The notes under the pieces are model-generated. The model did no database searches. It was not told where the DNA came from and was given only the letters and a program-made list of their open reading frames with translations. Source: Salana multivorans (GTDB taxonomy: Bacteria; Actinomycetota; Actinomycetes; Actinomycetales; Beutenbergiaceae). From it: a DNA stretch of 64,000 nucleotides. The position numbers and the translations under genes were made by a program. This document shows positions 10,313-63,121 of the stretch, piece after piece (the first letter of the stretch is position 1; every line of letters starts with the position of its first letter). Location of the stretch: the NCBI RefSeq assembly GCF_003751805.1, contig NZ_RKHQ01000001.1, forward strand, positions 2,728,001-2,792,000, written 5' to 3'.

Positions 10313-10331
10313 AGTACGACGGTAGGGCGCA

Positions 10332-10358: not shown

Positions 10359-10395
10359 TTTCGCTTGCTCCGGGGACTCGCCTCCGGATGGCCCT

Positions 10396-10443: not shown

Positions 10444-10452
10444 ACACGGCTC

Positions 10453-10749
10453 TCACGCCCTCGTGACGGCGTTGGCCCAGACCCAGGTGGTGCCCTGTCG
10501 TCCGTGCACGTCGATGTAGACGACCTGGACCTGTCGTGGGGTCCAGGCGACGGCGAGGCCGTCGCAGTGCTGCCAGGCCGTGCGGCCGGCGTCGATCCAG
10601 ACCCTGACTGGGACGGGCTTGTCGGGGGTGGTGACGCGCTCGTCGATGCGGGCCTGGAGCGGGACGCCGCGGACGCTGTCCCACGGCGGGACGGGCTCGC
10701 GGGCGGGCTCGTCCGTCTCAGGCGGCTGCGGGTCCTCTTCGTCGGGCAT
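10453..10749 (-). CDS. Hypothetical phage protein
   Basis: A 98-residue protein with a Pro/Glu-rich start and a compact C-terminal part (RVWIDAGRTAWQHCDGLAVAW, then VQVVYIDVHGRQGTTWVWANAV) that looks like a small beta barrel. I do not recognise it. The ATG at 10747-10749 has a strong AAAGGAGG ribosome binding site 8 bases upstream. It follows the next gene with a 32-base overlap. Confidence 0.65.
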   Translation of the reverse strand: MPDEEDPQPPETDEPAREPVPPWDSVRGVPLQARIDERVTTPDKPVPVRVWIDAGRTAWQHCDGLAVAWTPRQVQVVYIDVHGRQGTTWVWANAVTRA

Positions 10750-11098
10750 GTCCGCGTCCTCCTTTCGGGTCGGCGAGTTCGGCCGGCCACGCATCCCGGT
10801 CAGCTCGTCGGCGAAACCGGACGGCGCGCGCGACGTCGGCGCGGGGTAGCCAGGAGTTGCGTTTGCGGCCGGTGCGGGTCTCCCACTCCACGAGGACCAG
10901 GGACTCGGTGCGTCGGACCGCGCGGCCGGGGCGGACCTCGATCCGGCCGGGCCACACGAGTCGGGCGACCACGAGCGGGTCGCGGGAGCCTGGGTACTCC
11001 CGCAGCTCACGGTCGGCTGGTGGGTTGCGTGCATTCAGGGGGGCGAGGGGTTCGGGTTCGGGGGTCATGGGGTCGAGTGTGCGCCGGGGGTCCGACAT
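10718..11098 (-). CDS. Hypothetical phage protein
   Basis: A 126-residue basic protein. Its central part (RDPLVVARLVWPGRIEVRPGRA, LVLVEWETRTGRKRNSWLP) resembles small beta-rich phage proteins; I do not recognise a family. The start may be the ATG at 11096-11098 or the later ATG at 11066-11068; neither has a clear ribosome binding site. Divergent from the rightward regulator operon. Confidence 0.55.
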   Translation of the reverse strand: MSDPRRTLDPMTPEPEPLAPLNARNPPADRELREYPGSRDPLVVARLVWPGRIEVRPGRAVRRTESLVLVEWETRTGRKRNSWLPRADVARAVRFRRRADRDAWPAELADPKGGRGHARRRGPAAA

Positions 11099-11144
11099 TG
11101 AGGCTGGTCTCAGAGTGTGAGATTCTGCCTGACGGGACTAGGTG

Positions 11145-11167
11145 CCCCACAAACCGTGGGGTAGAGT
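11145..11167 (+). promoter_or_regulatory. Probable control region of the left regulator operon
   Basis: The inverted repeat ccccac-aaacc-gtgggg (11145-11161) is followed at once by TAGAGT (11162-11167), a good -10 box, about 57 bases before the first gene. The repeat would overlap the promoter spacer and could be an operator for the HTH protein of this operon. No good -35 is seen. Confidence 0.4.
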
Positions 11168-11224
11168 AGTTGTCACGAGGTCAGGGGATCAGCCCCAGAC
11201 CACCGGGTCCACACGGAGGACACC

Positions 11225-11395
11225 ATGACCACGATCCGCACTCTCGCCGCCGAGTACGACGCTCAGCCCTACGAGATCGCCGCGACGCTCGACCTGGGCC
11301 GCGACTACGACGAGACCGCAGAGATCGCCCCGGCTGACGAGCAGTGGATGCGCGAGGCCCTCGACGCCGCAGCCGAGGCCGCCGACAACGCCTGA
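11225..11395 (+). CDS. Small acidic protein of 56 residues
   Basis: The start has a GGAGG ribosome binding site 5 bases upstream. The protein is strongly acidic (14 Asp/Glu against 3 Arg) and has helical character; the N-terminal TTIRTLAAEYDAQPYEIA resembles small IF2 N-terminal-like helical folds. I do not recognise it. It is the first gene of an operon with an HTH regulator and a zinc-finger regulator. Confidence 0.75.
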   Translation: MTTIRTLAAEYDAQPYEIAATLDLGRDYDETAEIAPADEQWMREALDAAAEAADNA

Positions 11396-11403
11396 CGCAC
11401 GAA

Positions 11404-11440
11404 CAGCGCCCCATCCGCACGACCGGCGGGTGGGGCGCTG
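11404..11440 (+). promoter_or_regulatory. Start-associated stem-loop
   Basis: Perfect 10-bp arms 11404-11413 and 11431-11440, followed by gcgctaccacgagaggac and the ATG at 11463. It is one of a recurrent family of stem-loops in this prophage placed between gene pairs just before the ribosome binding site. Confidence 0.6.
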
Positions 11441-11462
11441 CGCTACCACGAGAGGACGAGGC

Positions 11463-11927
11463 ATGGATGAGCGGATGACAGCCGGGGAGTTGCAGACCGT
11501 CAGGGAGTACCTCGGTCTGACGACTGACGCGCTCGCCGGCATCCTGGGTGTGCGACCCGACACCGTGCGCCGGTGGGAGTCCGGCCGTGACCCTATCCCG
11601 CACCGTGTGCGGGAGGAGGTCGAGGAGGTCGAGGCATTCACGGCCTCCATCGCCGGGGAGGTCGTCGCGGCGCTCCATGACCAGGCGACCCCGGCCGTGC
11701 TGGTGTACCGGACGGACCGGGAGATGCACGCCGCACGTCCCGACACGGCGCACCTGACCGCCCGCTGGTGGCGCCACGTGGTCGCCCGCGCCGCTCACGA
11801 GATCCCCGGGCTCGTGATCGCCGGCGCCGGAGACATTCGTGGGCGAACGCGAGGAGGCTCGGCCCGGGTGGGCGACTTCTTCGTCGGCCCCGGAGGTCCG
11901 AGCCCTCGCAGCCACGCGACGCCATGA
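11463..11927 (+). CDS. HTH regulator (YdiL/DUF1870-like)
   Basis: A 154-residue protein. Residues 5-50 form a helix-turn-helix (MTAGELQTVREYLGL, ALAGILGVRPDTVRRWESGRDPIP) of the type found in YdiL/DUF1870 and Aca2-like regulators. The C-terminal half (VLVYRTDREMHAARPDTAHL, WWRHVVARAAHEIPG) is an additional domain not recognised. It probably represses its own operon. Overlaps the next gene by ATGA. Confidence 0.75.
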   Translation: MDERMTAGELQTVREYLGLTTDALAGILGVRPDTVRRWESGRDPIPHRVREEVEEVEAFTASIAGEVVAALHDQATPAVLVYRTDREMHAARPDTAHLTARWWRHVVARAAHEIPGLVIAGAGDIRGRTRGGSARVGDFFVGPGGPSPRSHATP

Positions 11928-12502
11928 GCGTCGACGACCGCCTGACGTGCGAGCTGTGTGGTCGCCGGTACGCGAACCTCGGTGGGCACGTGGTCCGCTC
12001 GCATGCCATGACGGTGCGCGAGTACCAGCTCATGCACGGCCTACCTGTGTCGCGGGGCCTGGTCTCGGACTCCCTGCGCGCCAGGCACGCGGCGCGGCAG
12101 CGGCGGATCATGGCCGGCCCCGAGGGCGAGCGGCTCCAGGCGGGCATCGCAGACAAGGCGGGCGCGGCGGCCGTGCGCGATCCCGAGGTGATGCGCCGTG
12201 CCGCGGTCGCTCGAGCGCCCCAGGCGGCCCCGAAGATCGCCGCGACCCTCCGCGCGAAGGTCCCGCCGCTGGTGTGCGTGGTGTGCGGGCGGGAGCATCG
12301 GCCCGGCGACCGGCGGACCCTGACCTGCTCACCCGAGTGCCGCTCGACCTGGCAGGCACAGCGGGTGGCTCGGGGGCCACGCGACCCCGACCGGGTCGCT
12401 CGGATGCGGGCCATGCGCGAGGCGGGCGCCTCCTACGCCGAGATCGGCCGCGCCTACGGCATCACCGGCCAGACCGTCCGCCACCACCTCACCCAGGCGT
12501 GA
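11924..12502 (+). CDS. Zinc-finger/HTH DNA-binding protein (Ros/MucR-like)
   Basis: A 192-residue protein with three parts: an N-terminal C2H2 finger (CELCGRRYANLGGHVVRSH) followed by a Ros/MucR-like tail (TVREYQLMHGLP); a second Cys cluster (CVVCGREH...CSPEC) at about 115-140; and a C-terminal helix-turn-helix (AGASYAEIGRAYGITGQTV). It is likely a DNA-binding regulator encoded at the left end of the prophage, away from the repressor locus. Confidence 0.75.
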   Translation: MSVDDRLTCELCGRRYANLGGHVVRSHAMTVREYQLMHGLPVSRGLVSDSLRARHAARQRRIMAGPEGERLQAGIADKAGAAAVRDPEVMRRAAVARAPQAAPKIAATLRAKVPPLVCVVCGREHRPGDRRTLTCSPECRSTWQAQRVARGPRDPDRVARMRAMREAGASYAEIGRAYGITGQTVRHHLTQA

Positions 12503-12507
12503 CAAGA

Positions 12508-12540
12508 GCCCCCGCCCCACCATGACGGTGGAGCGGGGGC
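12508..12540 (+). terminator. Terminator of the left regulator operon
   Basis: Arms gcccccgc (12508-12515) and gcgggggc (12533-12540) with an inner ccacc/ggtgg pairing, directly after the stop codon of the zinc-finger gene. Confidence 0.65.
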
Positions 12541-12553
12541 GCCTAAAGCGCGA

Positions 12554-12596
12554 ACGACGCCCCCACCACCTCGCGATGAGGTGGTGGGGGCGTCGT
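12554..12596. terminator. Bidirectional terminator hairpin, 19-bp stem
   Basis: Perfect arms 12554-12572 and 12578-12596 with a 5-base loop, between the rightward regulator operon and the convergent leftward late genes. Well placed to stop transcription from both sides. Confidence 0.75.
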
Positions 12597-12648
12597 CGTG
12601 TGCTGGGGTCGGATGCCGCAGGGGGCGGCGGCACCCGACCCTTCGAGG

Positions 12649-13500
12649 CTAGCCGTGGTCGGTGCAGCACGCGAGGGCAGCGGACCGCGAGGCGTAGACG
12701 GAGGTGCTCAGCCTTCGATCGACTCCGGCCATGATGTCCGCGTACTTCTCGTCGGCGGCAGAGACGCTGAACGGGCGCCGAGCGTGTCGAGCGCTACTGC
12801 GCTCCCGGTGGCAGGCTCGACATGCGCGACGCCCGTGCTTTCGCCATGTGGACTCAACCAGGTTCGGCGGGGCGAGCCGGTGACCGTGGAGGCATGCCAC
12901 CTGGTAGCCGGTCTCATCGTGCGTCTCTCCAACTTCGGCGCGGATCATGGCGAGAGCGACGTCTGCCTGACTTGCATCGAAGTCGCTTCCGAAGTGGCTC
13001 GCCCTGGCTCTCTCGCGATGACATGCCCGGCACTGGCGATGTCCATGCTTCCACCAGGTCGATGGCACCAAGTTGGGCCACTCAAGCGGGTGGCCCAAGG
13101 GGCACGTGGTGCGACGAGCCTGCCTGTTGCGGCCGTGCCTCACGGCGTCGTGCATGTTCTCGGAGTGGGTTCCCCAGTACAGGTTGGGCAGCGCGTTGTT
13201 CGTCGGGTTGCCGTCCCTGTGGCAGGCCTCCGCACCCTCGGGTTCGGGTCCAACGAATGCGAGCAGAACCAGACGGTGCACGGTCCTAGTGGAGCGCCCC
13301 CGGTCGCGATACAGGCTCACCATGGGGTAGCCGCCCTTCGCGATCGACGGTCGCAGGACGCGACCCCTCTGCGGCGCCCCTGCGGCACTGAGGCGGTCCA
13401 GCGACCTGACTCGACCGCGGTCGCTCACCTCGTAGAGTCCCTCGTAGCCGACGACGGGCAGCCACGTCTCGGGCGTCGGCACGACCACAGGGGTGACCAT
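12649..13500 (-). CDS. NUMOD4/HNH endonuclease with two repeated Cys/His modules
   Basis: A 283-residue protein. The N-terminal NUMOD4 motif (WLPVVGYEGLYEVSDRGRVRSL) is followed by an HNH core (VHRLVLLAFVG, CHRDGNPTNNALPNLYWGTHSENMHD). The C-terminal half holds two tandem copies of a module with the pattern C-x2-GH...NL...W-x-KHG-x2-CRACHRER, likely zinc-binding DNA-recognition units. This is the build of free-standing homing endonucleases. It begins 2 bases after the holin stop. Confidence 0.85.
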   Translation of the reverse strand: MVTPVVVPTPETWLPVVGYEGLYEVSDRGRVRSLDRLSAAGAPQRGRVLRPSIAKGGYPMVSLYRDRGRSTRTVHRLVLLAFVGPEPEGAEACHRDGNPTNNALPNLYWGTHSENMHDAVRHGRNRQARRTTCPLGHPLEWPNLVPSTWWKHGHRQCRACHRERARASHFGSDFDASQADVALAMIRAEVGETHDETGYQVACLHGHRLAPPNLVESTWRKHGRRACRACHRERSSARHARRPFSVSAADEKYADIMAGVDRRLSTSVYASRSAALACCTDHG

Positions 13501-13502
13501 GG

Positions 13503-13745
13503 TCAGTCGCCCACGGACGAGGCGGCCGTCTCGGTGTCGTCGACCTCGGGGAGTCCGCCGAGGCTGGTGAGGACCGAGAGGATGCCGGCGAGCGCGGCGG
13601 CGGACGCGACGCCGGGCCAGGCGATGTCGGTCACGCCGACGGCGGTGGTGCCGATGAGCGCGACCGCGGTCTGCGCCGCGGTCTTGAGAGCGCGGACCCC
13701 GGCGGCGGCGTACCAGCGGGGACGGACGAGGGCGTGCTTGGGCAT
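13503..13745 (-). CDS. Holin (r1t type)
   Basis: An 80-residue membrane protein with two hydrophobic segments (TAVALIGTTAVGVTDI and ASAAALAGILSVLTSLGG) separated by IAWPG, matching the r1t holin family. Holins form membrane lesions that let the endolysin reach the cell wall. It is encoded downstream of the endolysin and two other membrane proteins. Confidence 0.82.
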   Translation of the reverse strand: MPKHALVRPRWYAAAGVRALKTAAQTAVALIGTTAVGVTDIAWPGVASAAALAGILSVLTSLGGLPEVDDTETAASSVGD

Positions 13746-13789
13746 GGCGGGGTTCCTCCTGGTGCAGATCGGGTTGGAGCGTGCGCGGA

Positions 13790-13862
13790 AACTTCCAACT
13801 CACCGGGTGCCGCGGTTGAAAGTTGGGGCCGCATCTTCTAGTTCGGGGTCGACTAGAAGATG
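13790..13862. promoter_or_regulatory. Two inverted repeats upstream of the holin gene
   Basis: aacttccaac (13790-13799) pairs with gttgaaagtt (13815-13824) with one mismatch, and catcttctag (13832-13841) pairs perfectly with ctagaagatg (13853-13862). The gap is AT-richer than its surroundings. These could be regulatory sites or RNA structures controlling holin timing. Confidence 0.45.
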
Positions 13863-13882
13863 AGTAGGAGTGGGGCTTGCGG

Positions 13883-14194
13883 TCAGGCGGTGGTGGGGCG
13901 GGGGCGTGGTGGTGGGCCCTCGCCGCGGTAGATCTGGTCGACGAGCTGGCGCGAGTAGTCCTGCTCGACCGCGAGCTGGGCCTCGACCCTGTCCAGGCGC
14001 AGGCGCAGCGCGGTGATCTCCTCCTGCATCTGGTCGATGAGGGCGTCGCGGTCGGCGACGGTGTCGCGGCGCTCGGTGGAGTGGCGGGCGTGGACCCCGG
14101 CGCGGGCGTCGGCGATGGCCTTGGTGCCCTGCCAGATGATCCCGGCGAGGGCAGCGACGAGCGCGACGATGGTGCCCCAGTGCTCGAGGTTCAC
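13883..14194 (-). CDS. Membrane-anchored coiled-coil protein (DUF2746-like)
   Basis: A 103-residue protein: one N-terminal membrane segment (IVALVAALAGIIW) then a charged helical coiled coil (LIDQMQEEITALRLRLDRVEAQLA) and a Pro/Arg tail. Similar proteins lie in lysis cassettes of mycobacterial and related phages. Start is a GTG that overlaps the previous stop (GTGA). Confidence 0.65.
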   Translation of the reverse strand: MNLEHWGTIVALVAALAGIIWQGTKAIADARAGVHARHSTERRDTVADRDALIDQMQEEITALRLRLDRVEAQLAVEQDYSRQLVDQIYRGEGPPPRPRPTTA

Positions 14195-14622
14195 CCGCGC
14201 GCCCCCGTCCGCACCTTGTGGGCTGCGACCTCTCGGGAGCGGATCGACCAGAGCTGGACGTAGCGCAGCGTCAGGCTGAGGGCCATGGTGCTGATCGCGC
14301 CGGCCTGCGCGAGTCGTGTCGGGGCGTCGCCCACGATGTCCCAGACCGTGATCGCGTACACCACGGTGGCCCCGATGAGGGCGATCAGCCAGACCCACTC
14401 CCACCGGTAGCGGCGGGTCGCTGCCCCGTACAGGCACCCCAGGGCGCCAGCGACGGCGAGCACGCCCCACGCGTCGGTCAGCCACGGCGGCATCCGTGCG
14501 CTGATCGTGGTCGGGGTGAGCAGCACAGCGCCGGCGCCCATGACCAGGGCCATGGTGTAGACCCCGACCAGGACACCGTAGGAGACCCTGCGCGCCCACG
14601 GCGGCGCGGTTACGTACGGCAT
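14191..14622 (-). CDS. Four-pass membrane protein in the lysis cassette
   Basis: A 143-residue protein with about four transmembrane segments (GVLVGVYTMALVMGAGAVLL, WGVLAVAGALGCLYG, WVWLIALIGATVVYAITVW, AGAISTMALSLTL). It lies between endolysin and holin, so it may be a second holin or antiholin, but no family motif proves this. Confidence 0.6.
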   Translation of the reverse strand: MPYVTAPPWARRVSYGVLVGVYTMALVMGAGAVLLTPTTISARMPPWLTDAWGVLAVAGALGCLYGAATRRYRWEWVWLIALIGATVVYAITVWDIVGDAPTRLAQAGAISTMALSLTLRYVQLWSIRSREVAAHKVRTGARG

Positions 14623-14627: not shown

Positions 14628-15923
14628 TCAGCTCACGTCCGGCTTCGCGGGAATGCCGAGCGCGCGGACCGTCTTGGGGCCGACGACGCGGTCGGGCTTC
14701 GGCCCGAAGCGGGCCGGGTTGGCCTTCTGCGCCTGGTAGACGGCGTTGTCGGTGACCGCACCGTAGTCGCCGTCGACCACGAGCTTCGGGGCGACGGCCT
14801 TCCACCGGTTGAGGGCGGTCTGGAGCTGGCGGACCCACGCCTCCCAGCGGAGCGACTTGGACCCCTTGACGCCGTCCTCGACCAGGCCGGCCTTCCCGTA
14901 GCGGTTGGCGCGCTGCTGCCAGGCCAGGACCTTCGGGTCGCGCGCCTGCTGGGTGGGCGCGCTCGGCGCGGGCTTCGACGGTGCGGGCGCGGGCGGGGCC
15001 GCGGGTACGTACGGCGCCGCGCCGGGCGTCACGTCGAAGGTGCGGAAGTCGATCTCGGGGTTGCGTGTGGCGCCGCGCGCGGTCCACACCTCGAAGTGCA
15101 GGTGGTAGCCGGTCGTGACGCCGGACAGGTCGGTGACACCGAGTCGGTCCCCGACCCCTACGTTGTCGCCGATCTTGAGCCCGGCATCGGCGGTGACATG
15201 GCCGTAGAGCTGACGCTCCCCGTCCGGGTTGCGGACCACGACGCCATTGCCGGAGCGTCCCGGCGCGAGCACCGCGCCGATGGAGGCGGACTGGCCGCGT
15301 GCTCGTCCGCGCACGATCCGCTCGACCGTGCCGGCGAACGCCGCCCGCACCGTGCGGGAGACGCCACCGCCGGCGATGTCGAGCCCGGCGTGGAAGCCAC
15401 CCGAGCGGGAGCCGTAGCGGCTGGAGACGTACCCCTGGACGGGACTGGTCATGCGGGGCGCGGCCATGGCGCCACCTCCTAGAGTCTGGGCGAACGTCGC
15501 GAGGACGGCGGGGCTGGCGGCGATCTCGAAGTGCATCTCGTCGAGCTCCGCCGGCGACCAGTCCCCTCCCCACCGCAGGACGGGGTAACGGACCAGGAGC
15601 GCGCGGATCGCCACCTTCTGCGCGGCGGTGTAGGTCGAGCGGAACTCGGGGCGGCGGGAAGCGTTGAGGTCCACAGCGGTCCCGGAGGCGTGGTTGGACC
15701 AGCGATCCGAGCCGTGCTGCTTGCGGGGGGCGTACCCCCAGGAGTCGGCCTTCACGATCGGCTCGACCTCGCGCGCGAAGTCCGCGCAGAACGCACCCAG
15801 CACGGCCGCGACATCGCCGGCCAAGACGTTGCCTCGGCCGGCGACCGCGTCCAGGGTCCCGAGCGCGGGGTCGCCGTAGTCCGGCACGACGGCCCACCCG
15901 TTCGGGGTGATCGGCGCGCTCAC
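14628..15923 (-). CDS. Endolysin with M15 and M23 peptidase domains and a peptidoglycan-binding domain
   Basis: A 431-residue lysin. Residues about 15-145 resemble a VanY/M15 D-Ala-D-Ala carboxypeptidase (DRWSNHASGTAVDLNASR and WGGDWSPAELDEMHFE, with the zinc ligands H..D..H). Residues about 155-280 form an M23 endopeptidase (GGFHAGLDIAGG and GYHLHFEVW). A Pro/Ala linker leads to a C-terminal peptidoglycan-binding domain (LQTALNRWKAVAPKLVVDGDYG). It should cut peptidoglycan cross-links at lysis. GTG start overlapping the preceding small gene. Confidence 0.88.
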   Translation of the reverse strand: MSAPITPNGWAVVPDYGDPALGTLDAVAGRGNVLAGDVAAVLGAFCADFAREVEPIVKADSWGYAPRKQHGSDRWSNHASGTAVDLNASRRPEFRSTYTAAQKVAIRALLVRYPVLRWGGDWSPAELDEMHFEIAASPAVLATFAQTLGGGAMAAPRMTSPVQGYVSSRYGSRSGGFHAGLDIAGGGVSRTVRAAFAGTVERIVRGRARGQSASIGAVLAPGRSGNGVVVRNPDGERQLYGHVTADAGLKIGDNVGVGDRLGVTDLSGVTTGYHLHFEVWTARGATRNPEIDFRTFDVTPGAAPYVPAAPPAPAPSKPAPSAPTQQARDPKVLAWQQRANRYGKAGLVEDGVKGSKSLRWEAWVRQLQTALNRWKAVAPKLVVDGDYGAVTDNAVYQAQKANPARFGPKPDRVVGPKTVRALGIPAKPDVS

Positions 15924-25017: not shown

Positions 25018-25298
25018 CGCCCACCTCCTGCGGCGCTCATCGCCTTCGCGAGGTTGCCGGTGCGCGCCTCTACCAGGTGGGCATGAGGTGCTGTGGCGAC
25101 GACCCGAGCAACAGCCCGCCCGGTGTTGACGTCGACCACGTCGATGGAGTCGTGATACTCGCCCGTGACGTGGGGGGCTGCCGCTCGAGCCGCGCCAGCG
25201 ACGCCCTCTGCGACCTCATGGAGAAACGCAGCGACGCCCGGATCGGAGAGCACCTCGAGCACTCCGGATGAGTTCAGAACCACCTTCGGCGCAGCCAT
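25014..25298 (-). CDS. HK97 gp10-like head-tail connector
   Basis: A 94-residue protein with the family features AAPHVTGEYHDSIDV and ARVVATAPHAHLVEARTGNL. Proteins of this type join the neck to the tail. Start overlaps the preceding stop by one base, and the stop overlaps the tail terminator start. Confidence 0.75.
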   Translation of the reverse strand: MAAPKVVLNSSGVLEVLSDPGVAAFLHEVAEGVAGAARAAAPHVTGEYHDSIDVVDVNTGRAVARVVATAPHAHLVEARTGNLAKAMSAAGGGR

Positions 25299-25642
25299 CA
25301 GCCGGTCACTCGCCGGAGCTGGACGACCGCTCCGTCGGTCCGACGGCCAGGGTGGATCCACACGGCTGGGTCTCCCTCAACCGCGTAGACGAGGTCGCGC
25401 ACCCGCACTCTGTCGCCTGACGAAAGATCCGGGAAGGCCCCTCGAAAGTACAGCGCCGGCTCGCTGATCACGGGAGCGCGCCCGGGCTCTCGGGATTCGC
25501 GGCTTCCGCCAGGGTCGAACAGGGCGGTCGGCAGCGGCTCGACGACGTCGGGCCCATGGATTGGGTTGCCGTACCGATCTGTGCCGGTTTGCCCGCCGGC
25601 GCGGACTCGCCAGACGGGCTCGCCGGATTCGGTGACTCTCAC
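25298..25642 (-). CDS. Head closure / head-tail stopper protein
   Basis: A 114-residue protein of beta-rich pattern (ALYFRGAFPDLSSGDRVRVRDLVYAVEGDPAVWIHPGRRTD), coded between the first connector and gp10-like protein as in HK97-type neck modules. I chose the GTG at 25640-25642 with a G-rich site upstream, because longer starts would run into the divergent membrane gene. Confidence 0.65.
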   Translation of the reverse strand: MRVTESGEPVWRVRAGGQTGTDRYGNPIHGPDVVEPLPTALFDPGGSRESREPGRAPVISEPALYFRGAFPDLSSGDRVRVRDLVYAVEGDPAVWIHPGRRTDGAVVQLRRVTG

Positions 25643-25690
25643 GAGAACCCCCCGTTTCGCTCGCCATGTGGTTACTGCCAGACTCTCGGG

Positions 25691-25993
25691 ATGGATCAGG
25701 TGCAGGCCGCATGGGTGCGGAGCGCGGTGTCGGAGCATCCCGCTGCGAGGAAGTCGTTCGTGGACCCGCTGGTGATGGGGTTGGTGGTGCTTCCGGTTCT
25801 TGCGGGGGCGATCGGGTTCGTGGGCTGGCTGGTCTTGACGACTGGCGACGGCGGCCAGTTTCCGTTGGTTCTGTTCGGTGTCAGCGGGCTGCTAGCCCTC
25901 TGGGGGACGATCTCTCTGATCGTCGGTGCGTACCGTCTACTCTCCGCAGTGCAGGTGCATCTGCGTATCGGGCAGTACGGCGACATTCGCTAG
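25691..25993 (+). CDS. Two-pass membrane protein, copy A (isolated rightward gene)
   Basis: A 100-residue protein with two transmembrane segments (about 27-50 and 60-85) and a short basic C terminus. It is coded on the opposite strand inside the leftward head/tail operon, so it is likely an independently expressed moron. A TGCCAGACT extended -10-like box lies just before the ATG, suggesting a leaderless or nearly leaderless mRNA. A second copy, 94 of 100 residues alike, lies at 33753. Confidence 0.75.
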   Translation: MDQVQAAWVRSAVSEHPAARKSFVDPLVMGLVVLPVLAGAIGFVGWLVLTTGDGGQFPLVLFGVSGLLALWGTISLIVGAYRLLSAVQVHLRIGQYGDIR

Positions 25994-26038
25994 CGCCAGG
26001 ATTGCCGAGCTGCCGCGCCGCGCCAGGCGTAGATGCGC

Positions 26039-26428
26039 TCAACCACCGGCTGTCCTGTACATCGGGATGGTCGCCGCTTGCTGCCTGCCGTCGCCTCGGA
26101 GTCGCTTGATCTCGGGAGCGAGCAGGTACAGATCTCCCATCGGGTTGGCGTAGTTCCAGGAGTCCTGGAACGGGCCTGTGCCGTGCTGTTCCGATGAGAC
26201 CCCGACGGTGGCGGCGGAGACCGCCATGGCGCGCTTGACCGCAGCGCAGGAGATCAGCCGTCGCAGCGAGAGGTCATGCTGCGACGGCTCCGCTGGGGGT
26301 ACTGGCAGGGGAGCTGCCTCGTCGATCAGCACCGCGACGTCACCAAGGAGAACGTCCGCGCGAGCACGTTCATCGGAGTCGAGGGGCCGCCACCGCGACT
26401 CAAGGTCTTCGACCGTTGCGTATGCCAT
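26039..26428 (-). CDS. Head-tail adaptor (Gp15/Gp19-like)
   Basis: A 129-residue protein starting MAYATVEDLESRWRPL, the recognisable start of the phage Gp19/Gp15/Gp42 connector family, with a helical core (ARADVLLGDVAVLIDEAAP, SLRRLISCAAVKRAMA). It is the first connector under the portal in the usual gene order. Confidence 0.8.
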   Translation of the reverse strand: MAYATVEDLESRWRPLDSDERARADVLLGDVAVLIDEAAPLPVPPAEPSQHDLSLRRLISCAAVKRAMAVSAATVGVSSEQHGTGPFQDSWNYANPMGDLYLLAPEIKRLRGDGRQQAATIPMYRTAGG

Positions 26429-26443
26429 GACGGCCCCTCCCTC

Positions 26444-26782
26444 CTAGGCGATGTGCGATGCGACGAGGGCGCGGATCTCGCCCTGCTTCGCGTCTTCGGG
26501 GAACGGGACGTGGTTCGCGGTTGCGAACGCCGCCCATTCCCCCCGAGAGGCGTTCGCCCGCGGCGGCACGGGAGCCGTCACAGCGATCGCGTCCGGCTCG
26601 GTGGCCGGGGCGGTGTGCGCCGCCTCAGCCACGCCCTCGCCCGCAGGATCCTCGGGCACGGGAGCCGTCACGGCGATCGCGTCCGGCTCGGTGGGCCTCC
26701 AGCCGGCAGCGAGGAACGCGGCGAGACTCTCTGCCGGCACGCACACCTCGCCGCCGGACTGCGGCGACCGGAGCTTCACCAT
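26444..26782 (-). CDS. Small head-associated protein with internal repeat
   Basis: A 112-residue protein directly after the major capsid gene. The 13-residue motif TEPDAIAVTAPVP occurs twice, encoded by near-identical DNA (about 26569-26601 and 26657-26690). The C terminus (SRGEWAAFATANHVPFPEDAKQ) resembles small helix-extended-helix modules. It could be a head decoration or fibre protein; this is inference from position. Confidence 0.65.
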   Translation of the reverse strand: MVKLRSPQSGGEVCVPAESLAAFLAAGWRPTEPDAIAVTAPVPEDPAGEGVAEAAHTAPATEPDAIAVTAPVPPRANASRGEWAAFATANHVPFPEDAKQGEIRALVASHIA

Positions 26783-27696
26783 CAGCTCGGGGTGTTGCCG
26801 GTCAGCCGCACGAAGCGGTTGACGTCGCGGACTGCGAAGCCGACCTCGAACTCGACCCGGACCGCGAACATGTTCCGCTGCCACAGGTGGATCGCGGTGC
26901 CACCGTCGTTGAGCGTGGCCTGGTCGGAGATGCTGATGCTCAGCCCCTCGACGAAGCCCCACACGGCCGAGTCCCAGTCGCCCGCGATGCCGAGCGTCGC
27001 GGGGGTGCCCGGGCTCCCCGCGGTGCCGGGCTTGTAGGCGTGCGCCGTCTTCCAGGCCGGGCGGGCGAGCACCTGGCCGATGCTGCCCTGGTCGCGGATG
27101 GAGTCGATGAACAGGGGCCGACCCTGCTCGTCCTTGGCGCCCATCGCGGCGATCTCCGCCTGGACCGAGAGCGCCCAGCCGGTGACGTCCGACCCGCCGA
27201 CCGTTGCCACGGACTCCAGGGCCGCGAGGAACTGGTCGTACTGGGTGCGGTTGGCTCCCGGGGTCGTGAGGGACACCGCCGGCGCGGACGCCAGCGTGTC
27301 GAACCCGGTGCCCGGCGACGCCTGGAACCCGAACGCGGTCTGGTCGAACGTCTTCGCGAGGACGCCCGGCAGGCGACCCACGAGGGCGTTGTACAGCGCC
27401 GGCAGGTCGCGCCGGAACTGGTTCGAGAACGGCTCGATCACCGCGAGCGTGTAGCCCTTGATGTTCTTCGTCCCGAACGTCGAGCGCGAGACGGGCTTCT
27501 CGTCGGTCTCCGAGACCCAGGTGGCGACCGGGTCGCCCGTGATGATCGGGACGTCCACACCCCCACCGGGCAGCTCGATGCGGCGAGCGCGCTGCTGCAC
27601 GAACGACGCCTCCTGCGTCTTGGCCCAGATCTCCGCGGAGACCTCCTTGGGCAGCGTGATGCCGGACGTGGTCCGGTTGATGTCGATTCCAGCCAT
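26782..27696 (-). CDS. Major capsid protein (HK97 fold)
   Basis: A 304-residue protein with HK97-family features: a P-domain start (ASFVQQRARRIELPGGGVDVPII, WVSETDEKPVS), the long loop KGYTLAVIEPFSNQFRRDLPAL and the C-terminal AVRVEFEVGFAVRDVNRFVRLTG. It follows the scaffold gene by 12 bases and has a TCCTCC-complement ribosome binding site. Confidence 0.92.
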   Translation of the reverse strand: MAGIDINRTTSGITLPKEVSAEIWAKTQEASFVQQRARRIELPGGGVDVPIITGDPVATWVSETDEKPVSRSTFGTKNIKGYTLAVIEPFSNQFRRDLPALYNALVGRLPGVLAKTFDQTAFGFQASPGTGFDTLASAPAVSLTTPGANRTQYDQFLAALESVATVGGSDVTGWALSVQAEIAAMGAKDEQGRPLFIDSIRDQGSIGQVLARPAWKTAHAYKPGTAGSPGTPATLGIAGDWDSAVWGFVEGLSISISDQATLNDGGTAIHLWQRNMFAVRVEFEVGFAVRDVNRFVRLTGNTPS

Positions 27697-27708
27697 GGCT
27701 TCTTCCTC

Positions 27709-28281
27709 CTAGGAGAAGATCGGTCCGAGGGCGTCGGCGAACGCCTGCGCCGGCCCACCGAGAGGCTTGGTGGGCTGTGTGCCTTCGTCGGGCACATAGG
27801 GTCCGAGGGCCGCCTTCTTGACGGGCTCGGACGGGGTGATGAGCGGCTTGAGGGTCGCGGCGTGCGCCTCGATCTCCTCGCGGGTGGACCCGGCCAGGGC
27901 GACGGCGGGGACGCCGGTCTCGGTGGAGACCTCGGCCTTCCACGCGGCGACCTGCTTCTCGGCCTTGAGCGCGTCGCGCTCAGCCCGCGTCTCCGCGAGC
28001 TCCTTGGCCTGAGCCTCGGCGGCCTCGGCGCGCTTCTGCTCGTCCGACTTCGCGGCTTCCTCCAACTCAGCCAGCCGTGCGGCGGCGGCGGAGTTGGCCT
28101 TGGCCTGCGCCTCCCACTTCCGGGACTCGGCCTTGATGGCGGCGAGCTCGTCGCCCGCAGCGCGTGCGGCGTCTGCCTCGGCCTTGGCCTGTGCAGGCGT
28201 GAGCTGAGCGGGGGTGGGCTGGGTCGAAGCGGGCGTGACGTCGGCCGGGGCTGATGTCGGAGTGGCCGTGGTGTCGCTCAT
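27709..28281 (-). CDS. Scaffolding protein
   Basis: A 190-residue, highly charged and helical protein (EADAARAAGDELAAIKAES, AELEEAAKSDEQKRAEAAEA) with Ala/Pro/Thr-rich start, directly upstream of the capsid gene. This is the normal place and composition of a siphovirus scaffold, which is removed during head maturation. Confidence 0.85.
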   Translation of the reverse strand: MSDTTATPTSAPADVTPASTQPTPAQLTPAQAKAEADAARAAGDELAAIKAESRKWEAQAKANSAAAARLAELEEAAKSDEQKRAEAAEAQAKELAETRAERDALKAEKQVAAWKAEVSTETGVPAVALAGSTREEIEAHAATLKPLITPSEPVKKAALGPYVPDEGTQPTKPLGGPAQAFADALGPIFS

Positions 28282-28367
28282 CTGTGTTGCCTCCCGTGCG
28301 GGATCGCCACGAAGCCCATGCGGGACGTCGCGGTGGTGGATAGGTGGTCCCGGCCGTGCGGCCGTGG

Positions 28368-29078
28368 TCAGCGGATGCCCTGCTCCTGGCGCAGGGCGGC
28401 GAGGATCGCGCGGGGGTCGCCGCTCCCGGCGACCTTCCTGGCCTCCTGATAGTCGGCGTAGAGCGCATCGGGGTCGTAGCCCTCGATGTGGTGCTGCGCC
28501 CGGTCGAACTCGACGACCGGCATGCAGTCACAGTCGTCGTGGTAGTGGTCCATCTCACCAGCGGTCTTGCTGGAGCGGTAGACGAAGCCGCGGCTGGCGA
28601 GCATCAGACAGAACGCGCACGTGGTCGCGCCCTTGGGCACTCGCGCATAACGCGGACGGGCGGGGTCGGAGGCTACGTTGCGCCGGACTGTCTCGCGGGC
28701 AGAGTAGGAGACGTAGCGCTGCACCGCACCCGAGATGATCGATAGCGCCTCTGCGGGGTCACCCGCGAAGAGGCGCCCAGCGGCGAACCGCGTCGAGCCG
28801 ACCACCTGAGCCGCCTCGACGCCTGGGGCGGCGGTAGCCGAGAAGCGTCCAGCCACCTGAGCCGCGCGGACCTCCTCGTACCAGTCGGCCGCGACCGCGG
28901 TCGCGAGGTCGCCATACTCGCGGACCAGGGTGGGGACGAACTCGATCAGCGCGTCCCTGGCCGCTTCTGCGTCGGAGAGATCGAGTCCGCGCCAGAACGC
29001 CTCAAGCTCGGCCCGGGCCATCGCCACGACCTCAGCGTTCGCGGTCCTCAGCCGCTCAACGTCGCGCCGTGTGGTCAC
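28368..29078 (-). CDS. MuF-like head morphogenesis protein (VG15 type)
   Basis: A 236-residue minor head protein. The C-terminal segment TTCAFCLMLASRGFVYRSS followed by DHYHDDCDCMPV is the signature of the VG15/MuF-like capsid morphogenesis proteins. Coded between portal and scaffold. GTG start at 29076-29078 overlaps the preceding stop. Confidence 0.85.
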   Translation of the reverse strand: MTTRRDVERLRTANAEVVAMARAELEAFWRGLDLSDAEAARDALIEFVPTLVREYGDLATAVAADWYEEVRAAQVAGRFSATAAPGVEAAQVVGSTRFAAGRLFAGDPAEALSIISGAVQRYVSYSARETVRRNVASDPARPRYARVPKGATTCAFCLMLASRGFVYRSSKTAGEMDHYHDDCDCMPVVEFDRAQHHIEGYDPDALYADYQEARKVAGSGDPRAILAALRQEQGIR

Positions 29079-29239
29079 TCGGAGTCCGACGGCGGTCGTA
29101 GCGACACGGGTGTCGCGCCCGTGAACTTCAGTCCAGCGAGGCCAAGGCGACCTGCGGCGTCCGCCTGGTCGACCCCAGCGCGAATGGCTATGCCGAGAGC
29201 GTCGAACTTGGTCTTGAGCGCCAGGGCGTCCTCAGTCAC
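29075..29239 (-). CDS. Small protein between portal and MuF-like gene
   Basis: A 54-residue peptide (VTEDALALKTKFDALGIAIRAG start, then ADAAGRLGLAGLKFTG). It overlaps both neighbours by 4 bases (GTGA), so translation is coupled. The pattern resembles short portal-downstream proteins of actinophages; no function is known. Confidence 0.65.
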   Translation of the reverse strand: MTEDALALKTKFDALGIAIRAGVDQADAAGRLGLAGLKFTGATPVSLRPPSDSE

Positions 29240-30690
29240 CGAAGCCCCCCCCCCGCGGCCAACGAGGGCGATGTCGCATCCGAACCAGGGGCGACATCCG
29301 CTCGGGCAGCGAGCACCCGGTCAAGGGTGTTTCCACCCTGGATGCGGCGACGCTCAGCCGTGAAGCGATCAATCTGTTGCGGAGACAGCCCAGCCATCTC
29401 CATGCCCACCGTCGAGGCGGCCAGACCGTCGATAGCCGGGGCGACCTTGACGAACCAATCGCCGGCCGCGCTCGTCGTGACCTTGGTCGGGTTCAGCCAC
29501 ACGGGCGACAGGCCCGCGTACTCCGCGCGCGCCGCATCCGAGTCGTCCCGGAGCCGCAGGGCTGACACCATGAGGCGGCGCCACGCGGGCGACAGGGACG
29601 TGCTCTGCCAGTGGCGGATGTCGAGCTCCAGCTCGTGGTTCGCCTCTGAGATCGCGCCCTCGGACTCGGGGTTGTCTCCCACGATCCCCAGCGACCGCAG
29701 CGGCAGGTTCGTCTCCGAGGCGAACCACTGTGCGAGCATTCGGAGCTGCTCGATGTTCGGCTGCATCGACTGCTGCTTGAACTCGCCGACCGTCGGCGCA
29801 TTGCCCTCTTCGTCGCGCGAGAGTGTCAGGAGGTTGCCGAGGATGATCTGCCACCCCGACAGCGGGTTGCCGTCCCGGTCCGAGAAGGCGCCCTCCTCGG
29901 CGCCCATTGCCCACCGCTGAGGCGCGTTGAAGAACTCGGCGCTCACCTCGGTACGCAGCATGGACCTGACGATCGAGTCCGTCAGCGACATGACCGGCCG
30001 TGAGATGCGAGAGCGACCGAAGGGGCGCCCGAGCTCGGCGCGGTAGGCGAACTGCTCCACCGGTACGCCGAGCTCGTGGACGGACTGTCGGATGTCCCAA
30101 CGGGCACCACTGCGCCGCATGACGATCGCGGCGTTGGGGACATAGAGCACCATGTGGTCGATCGCGCCGAGGTCATCGACGTCCACAATCGAGAGAGCGC
30201 TGGTCATCGAGTTGAGGCGCGATGACCATGTGCCGGTCGCCCACTCGGCCGACCGCAGCGTGATCAGCGACTCCGGCTCGCCCGCGCCCGTGTCGCCCGC
30301 CGTGACGAAGCCGAATGCGGTCGAGGCGACCAGGGCGGAGGTGTGCGCCTGCGGCATCAGCGTCTCGAGGCGGTTCGCCTCCGAGATCTCGCCGACGCCC
30401 AGCACGTCCGGGTCTCCGCCCGAGGCGAGAGTCCAGCGCTCGAGCATCGTCCGACGCGACATCGAGTCGACCGCCTTAGCGGGCAGCCCGACGGCGGTCT
30501 CCACGCCCCGCAGGTGCGGTGGGATCGCGATACCCAGATCCTTGAGGCCGGCCTTGTGCTCGTAGTACGTGCGACGCAGGCGGTTCCTGAACGCCTTCCG
30601 CCGGATCTTCTCCACCAGGCCGGTGACCATGTCCTGGTGCTGAGCGCTCAGGCCGGCGACGTACGGTGTCTGCGTCGAGGCAGGGGTCAC
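29236..30690 (-). CDS. Portal protein
   Basis: A 484-residue portal of the SPP1/HK97-like type (RLRRTYYEHKAGLKDLGI, SRISRPVMSLTDSIVRSMLR, FNAPQRWAMGAEEGAFSD, LGIVGDNPESEGAISEANHELELDI). It forms the dodecameric ring through which DNA enters and leaves. GTG start overlaps the terminase stop by 4 bases. A run of ten Cs (coding Gs) lies near its 3' end at 29245-29254. Confidence 0.92.
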   Translation of the reverse strand: MTPASTQTPYVAGLSAQHQDMVTGLVEKIRRKAFRNRLRRTYYEHKAGLKDLGIAIPPHLRGVETAVGLPAKAVDSMSRRTMLERWTLASGGDPDVLGVGEISEANRLETLMPQAHTSALVASTAFGFVTAGDTGAGEPESLITLRSAEWATGTWSSRLNSMTSALSIVDVDDLGAIDHMVLYVPNAAIVMRRSGARWDIRQSVHELGVPVEQFAYRAELGRPFGRSRISRPVMSLTDSIVRSMLRTEVSAEFFNAPQRWAMGAEEGAFSDRDGNPLSGWQIILGNLLTLSRDEEGNAPTVGEFKQQSMQPNIEQLRMLAQWFASETNLPLRSLGIVGDNPESEGAISEANHELELDIRHWQSTSLSPAWRRLMVSALRLRDDSDAARAEYAGLSPVWLNPTKVTTSAAGDWFVKVAPAIDGLAASTVGMEMAGLSPQQIDRFTAERRRIQGGNTLDRVLAARADVAPGSDATSPSLAAGGGLR

Positions 30691-32213
30691 AGGATCATCC
30701 CCCTCTGCTTCTTGCCCGGCTTGCGTCGTGTCGTCCGAGCCGTCCGGTACGCCAGGCACATCGCCTCGATGTGCGCCTCGAGGCCGTCGTCGCCCGTGGA
30801 GTTCCAGCCCCACGCCCCGCCCGGTCGGGCCTTCTTGTCCGAGACGGCCACGGACTCCTCCAGGGCCACCTGTCCCTCGGTGTGGGTGAGGGATCCATTG
30901 AGGATCGCCTCGTACCCGAGCGAGCAGGAGTCGTAGTACTCGGCCGTCGTCGCGATGTGGATGCGGGACTTCGACACGCCCGCGTCAATCAGCGCGAGGC
31001 GGAGCACCTCGTCGTGCGAGGGGCCACAGATCGTGATCTGCGCGAACCGCCTCCAGCGCTCATCCTCGGCCAGCCATCGAGCCACACGCCCGATATCGAC
31101 CGAGCCCGCAAGCGAGCCACGCGCATCCCAAGGAAGTTCGGCGTGGAAGCCGTCCGGGTGCTTCGTCGCTCCCGCGACGCCCATCACTGTGCCCGAGGCG
31201 GAGAATGCCACCCCGAGCGATCGGATGCCATCAGTGGCAGGCGCTTCCGCGTTTCGCCACTGTGAGGCTGTGATGAGGCGACTGACCTTGCCGGTGGTCT
31301 CGCTCCATAGGCCGAGCCGGTCCTGGCCGAACTTCTCCACCGAGTAGGTCTCGCACTCGCCCTGCACGACCTCGACGTTCATTCGCGCGTTCCACGCCGG
31401 GTTGGCGGACCAGCAGATGTACTCGACCGCCGGAGTCCATCGGCGCGACTTGAGGTCGGGCAAGGCCGCTGCATACTCCGGCGACTCCCGGTCGGCACCC
31501 CACTCGCACCACGCCGCCGAGGTCGACTTGCCCTCGATAGCAGCCGCGCGGACGGACTCGAAGACGGTCGAGTCGTCCTCCTCCTGGGGCGCAGTGCCGA
31601 GTAGCCACACCTGCGGGTTCGGCATCGCAGACATCGTCGAGTTGATCGAGGTCCATGCGCGAGATCCGAGGATCTGAGCCTCGTCCAGCATCAGGCAGTC
31701 AGACGAAAATCCCTTGCCGCCTGCCCCCGAGCGCGCCTTGAACTGGATCGTCGCGCCGTTCGCGAACTTCACAGCCTCGCGGTTCAGAGCTTGCATGATG
31801 CCGCCCGGCTTCACGCGCTCCCGCAGCCAGGCGTTCGCCTCGTCCTCGACGATCTCCATGAGCTTCGAGAACGCCTCGCGCGCCGTGTCCTGCTGGTGGG
31901 CGCTGATGACGATCTTCTTCTCGCCGAAGAGAAGTGCGCCCGCGAGCGCGCGCGCCACGAGCAGCTGGCTCTTGCCGTTCTGGCGGGGCACCGTCACTCC
32001 GACCCGCTTGGCCGCCCAGGTGGCATCACGGCGCTCGCCCATCGCGGCCTTGAGGATCGTCTCCTGCCAGCCGTCCAGGACGATGCCCGCCGTCGCCGAG
32101 AGGTCAGCGACGTCCTCCCAGGAGTTAGCCCGAGCGCCCCTGGGCTCGACCAAGACGCGCGGTGGCGCCTCCCCGAGCAGCGCGACGGGCTGCGAGCTCG
32201 TCAACCGGATCAC
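30687..32213 (-). CDS. Terminase large subunit
   Basis: A 508-residue packaging ATPase/nuclease. The Walker A site is VPRQNGKS (about residue 75), Walker B is CLMLDEAQ (about residue 170), and a C-terminal nuclease-like region follows. The first in-frame start, GTG 32211-32213, overlaps the small subunit by 89 bases; a later start would remove conserved sequence (GIVLDGWQETILKAAMGER is well inside). Confidence 0.92.
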   Translation of the reverse strand: MIRLTSSQPVALLGEAPPRVLVEPRGARANSWEDVADLSATAGIVLDGWQETILKAAMGERRDATWAAKRVGVTVPRQNGKSQLLVARALAGALLFGEKKIVISAHQQDTAREAFSKLMEIVEDEANAWLRERVKPGGIMQALNREAVKFANGATIQFKARSGAGGKGFSSDCLMLDEAQILGSRAWTSINSTMSAMPNPQVWLLGTAPQEEDDSTVFESVRAAAIEGKSTSAAWCEWGADRESPEYAAALPDLKSRRWTPAVEYICWSANPAWNARMNVEVVQGECETYSVEKFGQDRLGLWSETTGKVSRLITASQWRNAEAPATDGIRSLGVAFSASGTVMGVAGATKHPDGFHAELPWDARGSLAGSVDIGRVARWLAEDERWRRFAQITICGPSHDEVLRLALIDAGVSKSRIHIATTAEYYDSCSLGYEAILNGSLTHTEGQVALEESVAVSDKKARPGGAWGWNSTGDDGLEAHIEAMCLAYRTARTTRRKPGKKQRGMIL

Positions 32214-32367
32214 CCGCCTTGCCTTCGTCTACCGCCAGCGCGGCGAGGTCGGCGGACACGGCGCGGATCTGGGCGGCGAGAGGAGCCCTTGCCGGCCCCT
32301 TCGCCTCGTCCCGGAGTCCGCTCATGAGCAGGTCGAGCGTTTCCTCAAGCACGGCCTTGCGGTCCAT
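32125..32367 (-). CDS. Probable terminase small subunit
   Basis: An 80-residue helical protein directly before the large subunit (AVLEETLDLLMSGLRDEAKG, APLAAQIRAVSADLAAL). It is shorter than most small terminases, so the call rests on position in the HNH-TerS-TerL-portal order. Confidence 0.6.
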   Translation of the reverse strand: MDRKAVLEETLDLLMSGLRDEAKGPARAPLAAQIRAVSADLAALAVDEGKAGDPVDELAARRAARGGATARLGRAQGRSG

Positions 32368-32469
32368 CGGCGGACCTCCCGAGCTCTGTGTGTGAAAGTC
32401 GCTATGCCTCTAGGGTGCGAGGAACCGGGAGGGGGAGGGGGTGCCCCCCGGGTCTGTCGCGGAGTCGCG

Positions 32470-32781
32470 TCACCACTCGATTCGAGGCTCGGCTCCTGGG
32501 CCGAGGGGTGGGGCGGCCCGCGTCTCTGCTCGTCGTTGTCCGAGCCGCTGGTTGCAGCGCCGGCAGATGACCCGCCCGTTACTGGCGTCGTTCGTTCCGC
32601 CGTCGACGACGCGGATGATGTGGTCTGGTTCGGCGCTGTTGGGTTGGCGGCTGACGTCGTAATCGAGCCATACGCCGCACCCTGGGACTGGGCACCGGGT
32701 GACTCCGGCTGCTCTTCCTGCGGCAAGGACAGCTTTGCGGAAGCGGAGGTGTGATGTCGTGCCGGTCCGTGAGGTGACCAT
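32470..32781 (-). CDS. HNH endonuclease next to terminase
   Basis: A 103-residue HNH nuclease: a CPVPGC...DHIIRVVDGGTNDASNGRVICRRCN core with the Cys pairs and the D-H, N and N residues of the fold. Free HNH proteins beside terminase are needed for DNA packaging in several HK97-type phages. Start ATG 32779-32781; the frame is open further upstream without support. Confidence 0.87.
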   Translation of the reverse strand: MVTSRTGTTSHLRFRKAVLAAGRAAGVTRCPVPGCGVWLDYDVSRQPNSAEPDHIIRVVDGGTNDASNGRVICRRCNQRLGQRRAETRAAPPLGPGAEPRIEW

Positions 32782-32865
32782 GGCGTGCCACTGCTCCCCT
32801 CCCGGCTTGCGCACTCTCCCGGTGTCCGGGAGACACCCCCGCGGGATGCGACTAGCCTCCCGGGT

Positions 32866-33378
32866 ATGAGCGAGGACGCCCCCCTGTTGGAGATCACATC
32901 CCACATCGACGGGAAGAACGCGAAGGTGCGTGTCTATCCGGACCGGGTGGAGTGGGACAAGGTCGGCAAGGTGTCGGGCGCGAAGGTGACGGCCGGGATC
33001 ATCACGATGGGTGCCTCGTTCGCGGCCACGGGGGCGCGTGGTCGCCGTGGTGCGGGGTCGGACATGTTGTTGATGGACGCGATCCAGGGGGTGACGACGC
33101 GTCGTGACACGGTGCTGAACGACGTGGTGGTTCTACATAGTTCGTCTGGTGTGATCGAGATGCGCTGTTCGAAGAAGGAGGCGGCTTCGATGAAGGAGCT
33201 GATCCTCGCGGTCAAGCGTGGCGCGTACTCGCAGCCGGTCTCGGCTCAGCCCGCTTCTCCGCCTCCGCCGGTTCAGCCTTCGTGGCCGGCGAACTGGTAC
33301 CCGGACCCGCAGAATGACCGCCAACTGCGGTACTGGGACGGTTCCCGCTGGACTGAGCACACCCACCCGAAGGGCTAG
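32866..33378 (+). CDS. DUF2510 protein with PH-like N-terminal domain (cargo gene)
   Basis: A 170-residue protein. Residues 1-110 look like a bacterial PH-like beta domain (ITSHIDGKNAKVRVYPDRVEWDKV ..., VTTRRDTVLNDVVVLHSSSGVIEMRC). After a Pro/Ala linker it ends in a DUF2510 motif (WYPDPQNDRQLRYWDGSRWTEHT), common in actinobacterial surface and membrane proteins. It is coded against the direction of the late operon, at its head, and is probably expressed in the lysogen. Confidence 0.75.
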   Translation: MSEDAPLLEITSHIDGKNAKVRVYPDRVEWDKVGKVSGAKVTAGIITMGASFAATGARGRRGAGSDMLLMDAIQGVTTRRDTVLNDVVVLHSSSGVIEMRCSKKEAASMKELILAVKRGAYSQPVSAQPASPPPPVQPSWPANWYPDPQNDRQLRYWDGSRWTEHTHPKG

Positions 33379-33692
33379 ACGCCCTCGCCCAGTTCGTGGG
33401 CGGCAACCTGGCGCCCCACTTCGGCCAGAATGTTCTCAGGGTTGGTGCCGCCCGGGATCCCGTTGACTTGAATGCCCTCACCCTCAACGGCCTGCACCAG
33501 GTCGCTGGCGTAGTGGAGCGCTCGGGTGAGCAGGTGAGCCATGGCGACTGCAACGAAGCGCGCATCGCGCGCGTCGAGGTCTGCGAGGAGCAGGTAGCAC
33601 TCGGTCCAGGCGTTCTCGTTCTCGTCCTGAGTTTGGAGGTTGGTCGCCACTGCGAGGGCCCTGCGAAGTGCTTCGATCGGTTCGATGTCCAT
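33375..33692 (-). CDS. Hypothetical helical protein
   Basis: A 105-residue helical protein (IEALRRALAVATNLQTQDE, DARFVAVAMAHLLTRALHYA). No family recognised. It converges with the DUF2510 gene, overlapping its stop by 4 bases, and diverges from the membrane protein copy B. Start ATG 33690-33692. Confidence 0.55.
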   Translation of the reverse strand: MDIEPIEALRRALAVATNLQTQDENENAWTECYLLLADLDARDARFVAVAMAHLLTRALHYASDLVQAVEGEGIQVNGIPGGTNPENILAEVGRQVAAHELGEGV

Positions 33693-33752
33693 GGCGCCGA
33701 CTGTAGGGCCTGATCGGGTGCGGCGCGGTGTTTTGCCTGCCAGAATCTCGGG

Positions 33753-34055
33753 ATGGATCAGGTGCAGGCCGCGTGGGTGCGGAGTGCGGTGTCGGAGCAT
33801 CCGGCCGCGAGGAAGTCGTTCGTGGACCCGCTGGTGATGGGCCTCGTGGTGCTTCCCGTGCTGGCAGGTGTGATCGGTTTTGTGGGCTGGCTGGTGCTGA
33901 CGACTGGCGACGGCGGCCAGTTCCCGATGGTTCTGTTCGGTGTCAGCGGACTGCTAGCCCTCTGGGGGACGATCTCTTTGATCGTTGGTGCCTACCGCCT
34001 GCTCTCCGCGGTGCAGGTGCACCTGCGGATCGGGCAGTTCGGCGACTTGCGTTAG
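33753..34055 (+). CDS. Two-pass membrane protein, copy B
   Basis: A 100-residue near-duplicate of the protein at 25691 (differences such as GAI/GVI, FPL/FPM, QYGDIR/QFGDLR). Two transmembrane segments. The short upstream region also matches (TGCCAGAATCTCGGG before the ATG), so the promoter travelled with the gene. Membrane location and isolated expression suggest a lysogen-expressed function such as superinfection exclusion; this is inference. Confidence 0.75.
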   Translation: MDQVQAAWVRSAVSEHPAARKSFVDPLVMGLVVLPVLAGVIGFVGWLVLTTGDGGQFPMVLFGVSGLLALWGTISLIVGAYRLLSAVQVHLRIGQFGDLR

Positions 34056-34062: not shown

Positions 34063-34683
34063 CTACTCGCCGCGGAGGGCGAGGCGCTGTTCGCGGAAGC
34101 GGGTGAGCTTGGCATCCCGCTGGTATGCCTCGTCGAGGAACTGGTCGAGGAAGCCGAGCATGTCGGCGATCAGTTCCTCGGGGACGCTGGCCACGAAGTC
34201 GCCGTGGGCCATGTCGTTGCCGAGGAAGCGGATCTCGTGCGCGGCTTCTTTGACGCCCTTGCCGATGATCTCTTGGTCGTAGAGGGCGTCGATCTTGGCG
34301 AGGATGCCACCGGTCGTGATGCCCTTGTCTTTGGCGGTGGCCTCGACGACGGCTCGTGCCATCGCGGCGGAGGCGCGGTACTGGCCGATGGAGTAGCAGA
34401 CCCAGGCTTCGGAGGCTGCGGCGGCGATCTGCTCGGGCACGTCAGGGAACTCCTTCCCGTACACGCGCTCCGGGAGCCAGCGGGGAGTGGCGTCCGGGTC
34501 GTCGATGTGCCTTCGTGCTGCCACGTAGTCGGACGCGAGCGCGAGGGGCTGCACTGCGATGCTCATCGCGCCACAGTTGTCGCACTTCATTCCGGCGGAC
34601 CATGAGTCGCGACCGCGCGTGGGCTCATGCATCCGCGTGTGATGAGCGGCTTGGTGGCAGTTCCAGCAGACTCTTGAGGCCAT
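34063..34683 (-). CDS. DUF4145-domain protein with zinc ribbon
   Basis: A 206-residue protein: an N-terminal Cys4 zinc ribbon (CWNCHQ...CDNCGA) and a helical DUF4145 domain (SEAWVCYSIGQYRASAAMARAVVEATAKDKG, HEIRFLGNDMAHGD). DUF4145 domains occur alone or fused to restriction and other defence proteins. Its place in the cargo region fits a moron. It converges with membrane gene copy B, 8 bases apart. Confidence 0.8.
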   Translation of the reverse strand: MASRVCWNCHQAAHHTRMHEPTRGRDSWSAGMKCDNCGAMSIAVQPLALASDYVAARRHIDDPDATPRWLPERVYGKEFPDVPEQIAAAASEAWVCYSIGQYRASAAMARAVVEATAKDKGITTGGILAKIDALYDQEIIGKGVKEAAHEIRFLGNDMAHGDFVASVPEELIADMLGFLDQFLDEAYQRDAKLTRFREQRLALRGE

Positions 34684-63119: not shown

Positions 63120-63121
63120 GG

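Follow-up and report, generated by a model that had tools for sequence, protein, structure and literature searches.

Two diverged copies of a gene for a predicted two-pass membrane protein, each behind a leaderless-promoter-like box, in a prophage of Salana multivorans

Small membrane proteins encoded by prophages are a known, although poorly charted, source of phage resistance. Foremost among the described systems that bear on the present locus is gp32 of mycobacteriophage Charlie, a prophage membrane protein thought to prevent the injection of DNA by Che9c (PMC9262239, PMC6426606). The RexAB-like pairs Sbash gp30/gp31, CarolAnn gp44/gp43 and Butters gp30/gp31 are actinophage units of small genes, expressed in lysogeny, that include a membrane partner (PMC7542560, PMC6426606). 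In Actinobacteria, genes are commonly leaderless, with a TANNNT signal some 12 bp ahead of the start (PMC3160421); a -10-like signal at about 12 bp before the start codon is also supported by a study in which TGN ahead of the -10 element accompanies higher activity in M. tuberculosis (PMC3898074).

The window, by which we mean the whole 64,000-nucleotide stretch of DNA analysed, holds a 49.6-kb prophage integrated at a tRNA-Gly gene and, within it, two copies of a small gene that are the only two in the assembled genome (3.89 Mb). The features on which the following account relies are:

10262-59880, no strand assigned: prophage, with an att core of 51 bp inside tRNA-Gly (10262-10312)
14628-15923: candidate endolysin, with domains Peptidase_M15_4, Peptidase_M23 and PG_binding_1 in a single protein
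25298..25687, minus strand: gene for head closure protein Hc1 (phrog_501), flanking copy 1 on its 5' side
25676..25690, plus strand: copy 1 box TGCCAGACTCTCGGG, with -10-like CAGACT at -12..-7 of the ATG
25691..25993, plus strand: copy 1, predicted two-pass membrane protein of 100 aa (from the ORF and hydropathy)
26039..26428, minus strand: gene for head-tail adaptor Ad1 (phrog_137), flanking copy 1 on its 3' side
32866-33378, plus strand: gene for a DUF2510-tailed protein, against the late genes and near copy 2
33375..33692, minus strand: gene of unknown function, flanking copy 2 on its 5' side
33738..33752, plus strand: copy 2 box TGCCAGAATCTCGGG, with -10-like CAGAAT at -12..-7 of the ATG
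33753..34055, plus strand: copy 2, predicted two-pass membrane protein of 100 aa, 96% identical to copy 1
34063..34683, minus strand: gene for a DNA-binding-like protein (phrog_1305) that converges on copy 2
58422-59801, minus strand: prophage integrase, at the right end of the prophage

The capsid, portal, terminase, tail and connector genes of the prophage all point leftward. Past its right end the prophage sequence restarts, window positions 59881-64000 being an exact repeat of its first 4.1 kb (10262-14381); the restarted sequence runs for 7.1 kb up to the end of contig C1, and the final 10.5 kb of the prophage, together with attR, is found at the end of contig C2. Since attL, attR and an attP-like junction are all present in the assembly, either the prophage is in tandem, which would make four copies of the small gene per chromosome, or circular phage DNA was present. 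The assembly breaks inside the second, partial prophage copy and therefore does not fix the number of these genes per cell. The prophage also contains a tandem array (51787-52449) with a 24-bp period and 19 registers inside a long ORF, possibly encoding a protein of 8-residue repeats.

The positions and hydropathy of the two ORFs agree with the initial annotation, which had described plus-strand genes for two-pass proteins of 100 residues running against the leftward structural genes, and the neighbours of both copies are indeed on the minus strand. Where that annotation had put the differing residues at about six, we count four (A40V, L59M, Y96F and I99L), all of them conservative. The sequence supports a two-pass membrane protein, with hydrophobic segments at about residues 31-49 and 60-78, a short polar loop between them and basic residues at both ends; it probably forms a helical hairpin in the inner membrane with both ends in the cytoplasm. 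The AlphaFold model is a helical hairpin of low confidence (pLDDT 66, pTM 0.33), and a structure search with this weak model returned no significant PDB match. No match for the protein was found in Pfam, PHROGs, NCBIfam or PADLOC. The GC3 of the copies (0.80-0.83) contrasts modestly with that of the capsid (0.96) and portal (0.87) genes.

Both genes had been placed in the late operon, which holds for copy 1, situated between two head-tail connector genes. Copy 2 is flanked on both sides by leftward genes and lies a short way upstream of the terminase block, its ORF end separated by 7 bases from that of the convergent phrog_1305 gene. Copy 1 occupies the gap between Ad1 and Hc1; as the corresponding pair of genes in L027, a viral contig related to the prophage, overlaps by 4 bases with no insert, copy 1 is an insertion between connector genes. 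The true start of Hc1 is probably a GTG near 25642. The DUF2510 gene carries TAGCCT at -13..-8, 7 bases before its ATG, and is a possible further leaderless moron beside copy 2. As to the two copies themselves, the label of moron is supported: each stands alone on the opposite strand among the structural-region genes that enclose it, with a promoter-like box of its own and a deviating GC3.

Over the ORF, stop codon included, the copies differ at 32 nucleotides, distributed 5/2/25 over codon positions 1/2/3. Estimates of dN fall at about 0.02-0.04 and those of dS at about 0.4-0.7 (0.42-0.69 by four methods), yielding a dN/dS of about 0.03-0.08 rather than the value near 1 that the initial annotation had named as speaking against it. 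Random substitution of 31 changes into 300 coding bases produced a mean of 21 amino-acid changes, and 0 of 20,000 simulations gave four or fewer. The predominance of third-position changes and the low dN/dS thus mark both copies as genuine genes kept by purifying selection, and their divergence as old. A recent duplication is excluded by the dS. DNA similarity between the copies extends from about 15 bases before the ATG (TGCCAGANTCTCGGG) to the stop codon; beyond the box and the stop codon, the flanks of copy 1 and copy 2 share no similarity.

The search for relatives covered 24 family genomes and 396 order genomes, the genus being represented by one genome. A clear relative was absent from 22 of the 24 family genomes and from 394 of the 396 order genomes sampled. 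One further relative, with 47% identity, was found in another genus (genome G006) at a non-phage locus: it is chromosomal, outside any visible prophage, and stands alone among metabolic genes (RibD_C, alpha/beta hydrolase, cyclase). It keeps TGTCAGACT-N6-GTG, with the same spacing as both copies. We note that a perfect 40-base direct repeat flanks this relative (L006:9396-9435 and 9813-9852), covers the end of the RibD_C gene and looks like an insertion scar. In an empty-site comparison the locus was not found at the DNA level in the two congeners of G006, and flanking direct repeats of this kind were not seen around copies 1 and 2. Other actinophages, where the initial annotation would have had the gene looked for, yielded nothing from our phage collection (tblastn up to E = 10), and neither the plasmids nor the viral contigs, the latter scanned three times, returned a relative. 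The one match among genome contigs, in Rhodovarius, was rejected as a chance peptide inside an oxidoreductase-like protein. Weak profile matches from other parts of the phylum and order fall within long open frames and were set aside, the best of them (L018) being a multi-pass transporter-like protein.

The boxes TGCCAGACTCTCGGG and TGCCAGAATCTCGGG abut their ATG directly and are identical at 14 of 15 bases, in keeping with the match reported earlier; as this identity persists despite a silent divergence of 0.42-0.69 per site, the box itself is probably constrained. Exact matches to it within the window occur only at the two copies, and all three family members have CAGANT at -12..-7 of the start codon. 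Our promoter statistics are based on pattern searches of the host genome, in which TGYCAGANT-N6-RTG was found at six sites, including the two morons; of the others, three lie where a barstar-like gene, a dienelactone-hydrolase-like gene and a further ORF begin, and the sixth, with GTG, is seemingly internal to a regulator-like gene. The pattern TGNNAGANT-N6-ATG occurs 16 times against 2 for a reversed control, and the ORFs behind it include PurB (adenylosuccinate-lyase)-, cyclophilin-, adenosine deaminase- and barstar-like ones, barstar being confirmed by Pfam and the other three names being sequence readings only. The classical TGNTANNNT-N6-ATG is found at 6 sites and its control at none. The AGANT-after-TG variant is seemingly commoner in the host genome than the extended TANNNT form (16 vs 6).

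A sigma-70 -35/-10 pair was looked for at the two copies and not found, no -35 element being seen, and a standard sigma-70 promoter with a -35 was rejected for that reason. A phage-specific operator or start-associated repeat was likewise rejected, since the box also fronts host genes. That the hexamer CAGANT lacks the first T of TANNNT counts against a promoter; nevertheless, given the enrichment before host genes, the fixed spacing and the actinobacterial precedent, the reading that suits the box best is that of a leaderless -10 promoter of the host. The promoter box proposed initially is thus retained as promoter-like, and is of a host-wide leaderless type (16 vs 2 before ATG) and not specific to the phage. 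Each copy is probably a self-contained, constitutive moron unit. A simple scan for hairpin-plus-T terminators found none after either stop codon.

We propose, with a probability of roughly 0.4 for the explanation as a whole, that each copy is a self-contained leaderless moron with a host-type -10 element, TGnCAGAnT, directly before its start codon. Given the nature and position of this promoter, host RNA polymerase would transcribe the copies in the lysogen, where the late genes opposite them are silent. The product would be a small helical-hairpin protein of the inner membrane that alters the lysogen envelope and thereby excludes other phages, for example at DNA entry, and two old units from different lineages would have been joined by mosaic recombination with both sequences kept. 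The genes, the selection on them, the box and its occurrence before host genes, the lack of a known family and the prophage setting are observed; transcription in the lysogen, topology, exclusion role and acquisition route are the elements that we infer. We expect the lysogen to make both copies, and the conservative nature of their residue differences suggests the same function for both. Our best guess is a lysogen-expressed envelope or superinfection-exclusion protein; by analogy with Charlie gp32, envelope exclusion appears the likeliest role, although a more general part in membrane function or fitness is nearly as likely, and the injection block or membrane alarm suggested at the outset is plausible by analogy. 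No known exclusion or defence homologue was found in the four databases searched, but such proteins are very diverse, so that the missing homology lowers only a claim of membership.

The protein may have a broader function in the membrane, since the one relative found is chromosomal and outside any visible prophage. The solitary position of this relative among the metabolic genes of another genus, behind the same leaderless box, would also suit a host-physiology gene, such as a small membrane adaptor or stress protein, that was taken up by the phage and benefits the lysogen in growth or stress rather than in defence, as would the presence of the same type of box before housekeeping-like genes. 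We nonetheless regard this as somewhat less likely, for the lack of a clear relative in so many family and order genomes (22/24 and 394/396) is unusual for a housekeeping gene and the two copies sit in a prophage. Class II holins typically have about 100 residues and two transmembrane segments, a description that the protein fits and that could make it a membrane protein of the lytic cycle, similar to a holin or antiholin, that has moved away from the lysis cassette; this is highly improbable, as both copies are distant from the candidate endolysin, run against the late genes, have a host-type promoter and match no holin family.

With regard to the presence of two copies, a duplication kept for useful dosage or heterogeneity, as the initial annotation suggested, is hypothetical, and two independent acquisitions through mosaic recombination would fit their divergence at least as well as duplication in place. 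Used as an outgroup, the G006 relative shares 17 of the differing sites with copy 1 and 13 with copy 2 (over an aligned stretch that includes downstream bases), and this near-equal sharing suggests that neither copy is clearly derived. The odds appear about even that the second copy has been kept by history only, phage recombination having brought together orthologous morons with no value in having two, each retained passively or by phage-level selection. A dS of 0.4-0.7 with conservative changes only, flanks that share no similarity and the even distribution of outgroup-shared sites all argue for such a history, whereas the intactness of both copies over their divergence suggests selection on each, which may however predate their joining. 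Alternatively, the unit of about 320 bp (extended -10 plus leaderless gene) could be a minimal mobile cassette, given its occurrence at three unrelated sites, the ending of homology at promoter and stop codon and the 40-base repeat at G006, which is as if from target duplication; we consider this a long shot. If true, such cassettes would be the smallest self-sufficient genes to move, and phages would gather them in multiple copies.

Whatever the history of the pair, this is a very rare family, with three members found, two of them conserved copies in one prophage. Read as leaderless morons expressed in the lysogen, these genes would indicate that an actinobacterial moron needs little DNA, namely a leaderless promoter of 15 bases with a start codon behind it, and TGnnAGAnT-N6-ATG opposite late genes would provide a simple sequence test for lysogen-expressed actinophage genes. 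They share with the leaderless genes of Actinobacteria a -10-like element at -12..-7 that leaves no space for a Shine-Dalgarno leader, and differ from them in having CAGANT (the AGANT variant after TG) in place of TANNNT. Compared with the RexAB-like systems of Sbash, CarolAnn and Butters, which consist of two genes and a four-pass membrane protein, there is here one gene and a protein of two predicted passes. Like Charlie gp32, the product is a single predicted membrane protein from an actinophage prophage; no sequence relation between the two was seen in the phage collection, and while Charlie gp32 is encoded in the central variable region, copies 1 and 2 lie inside the structural block.
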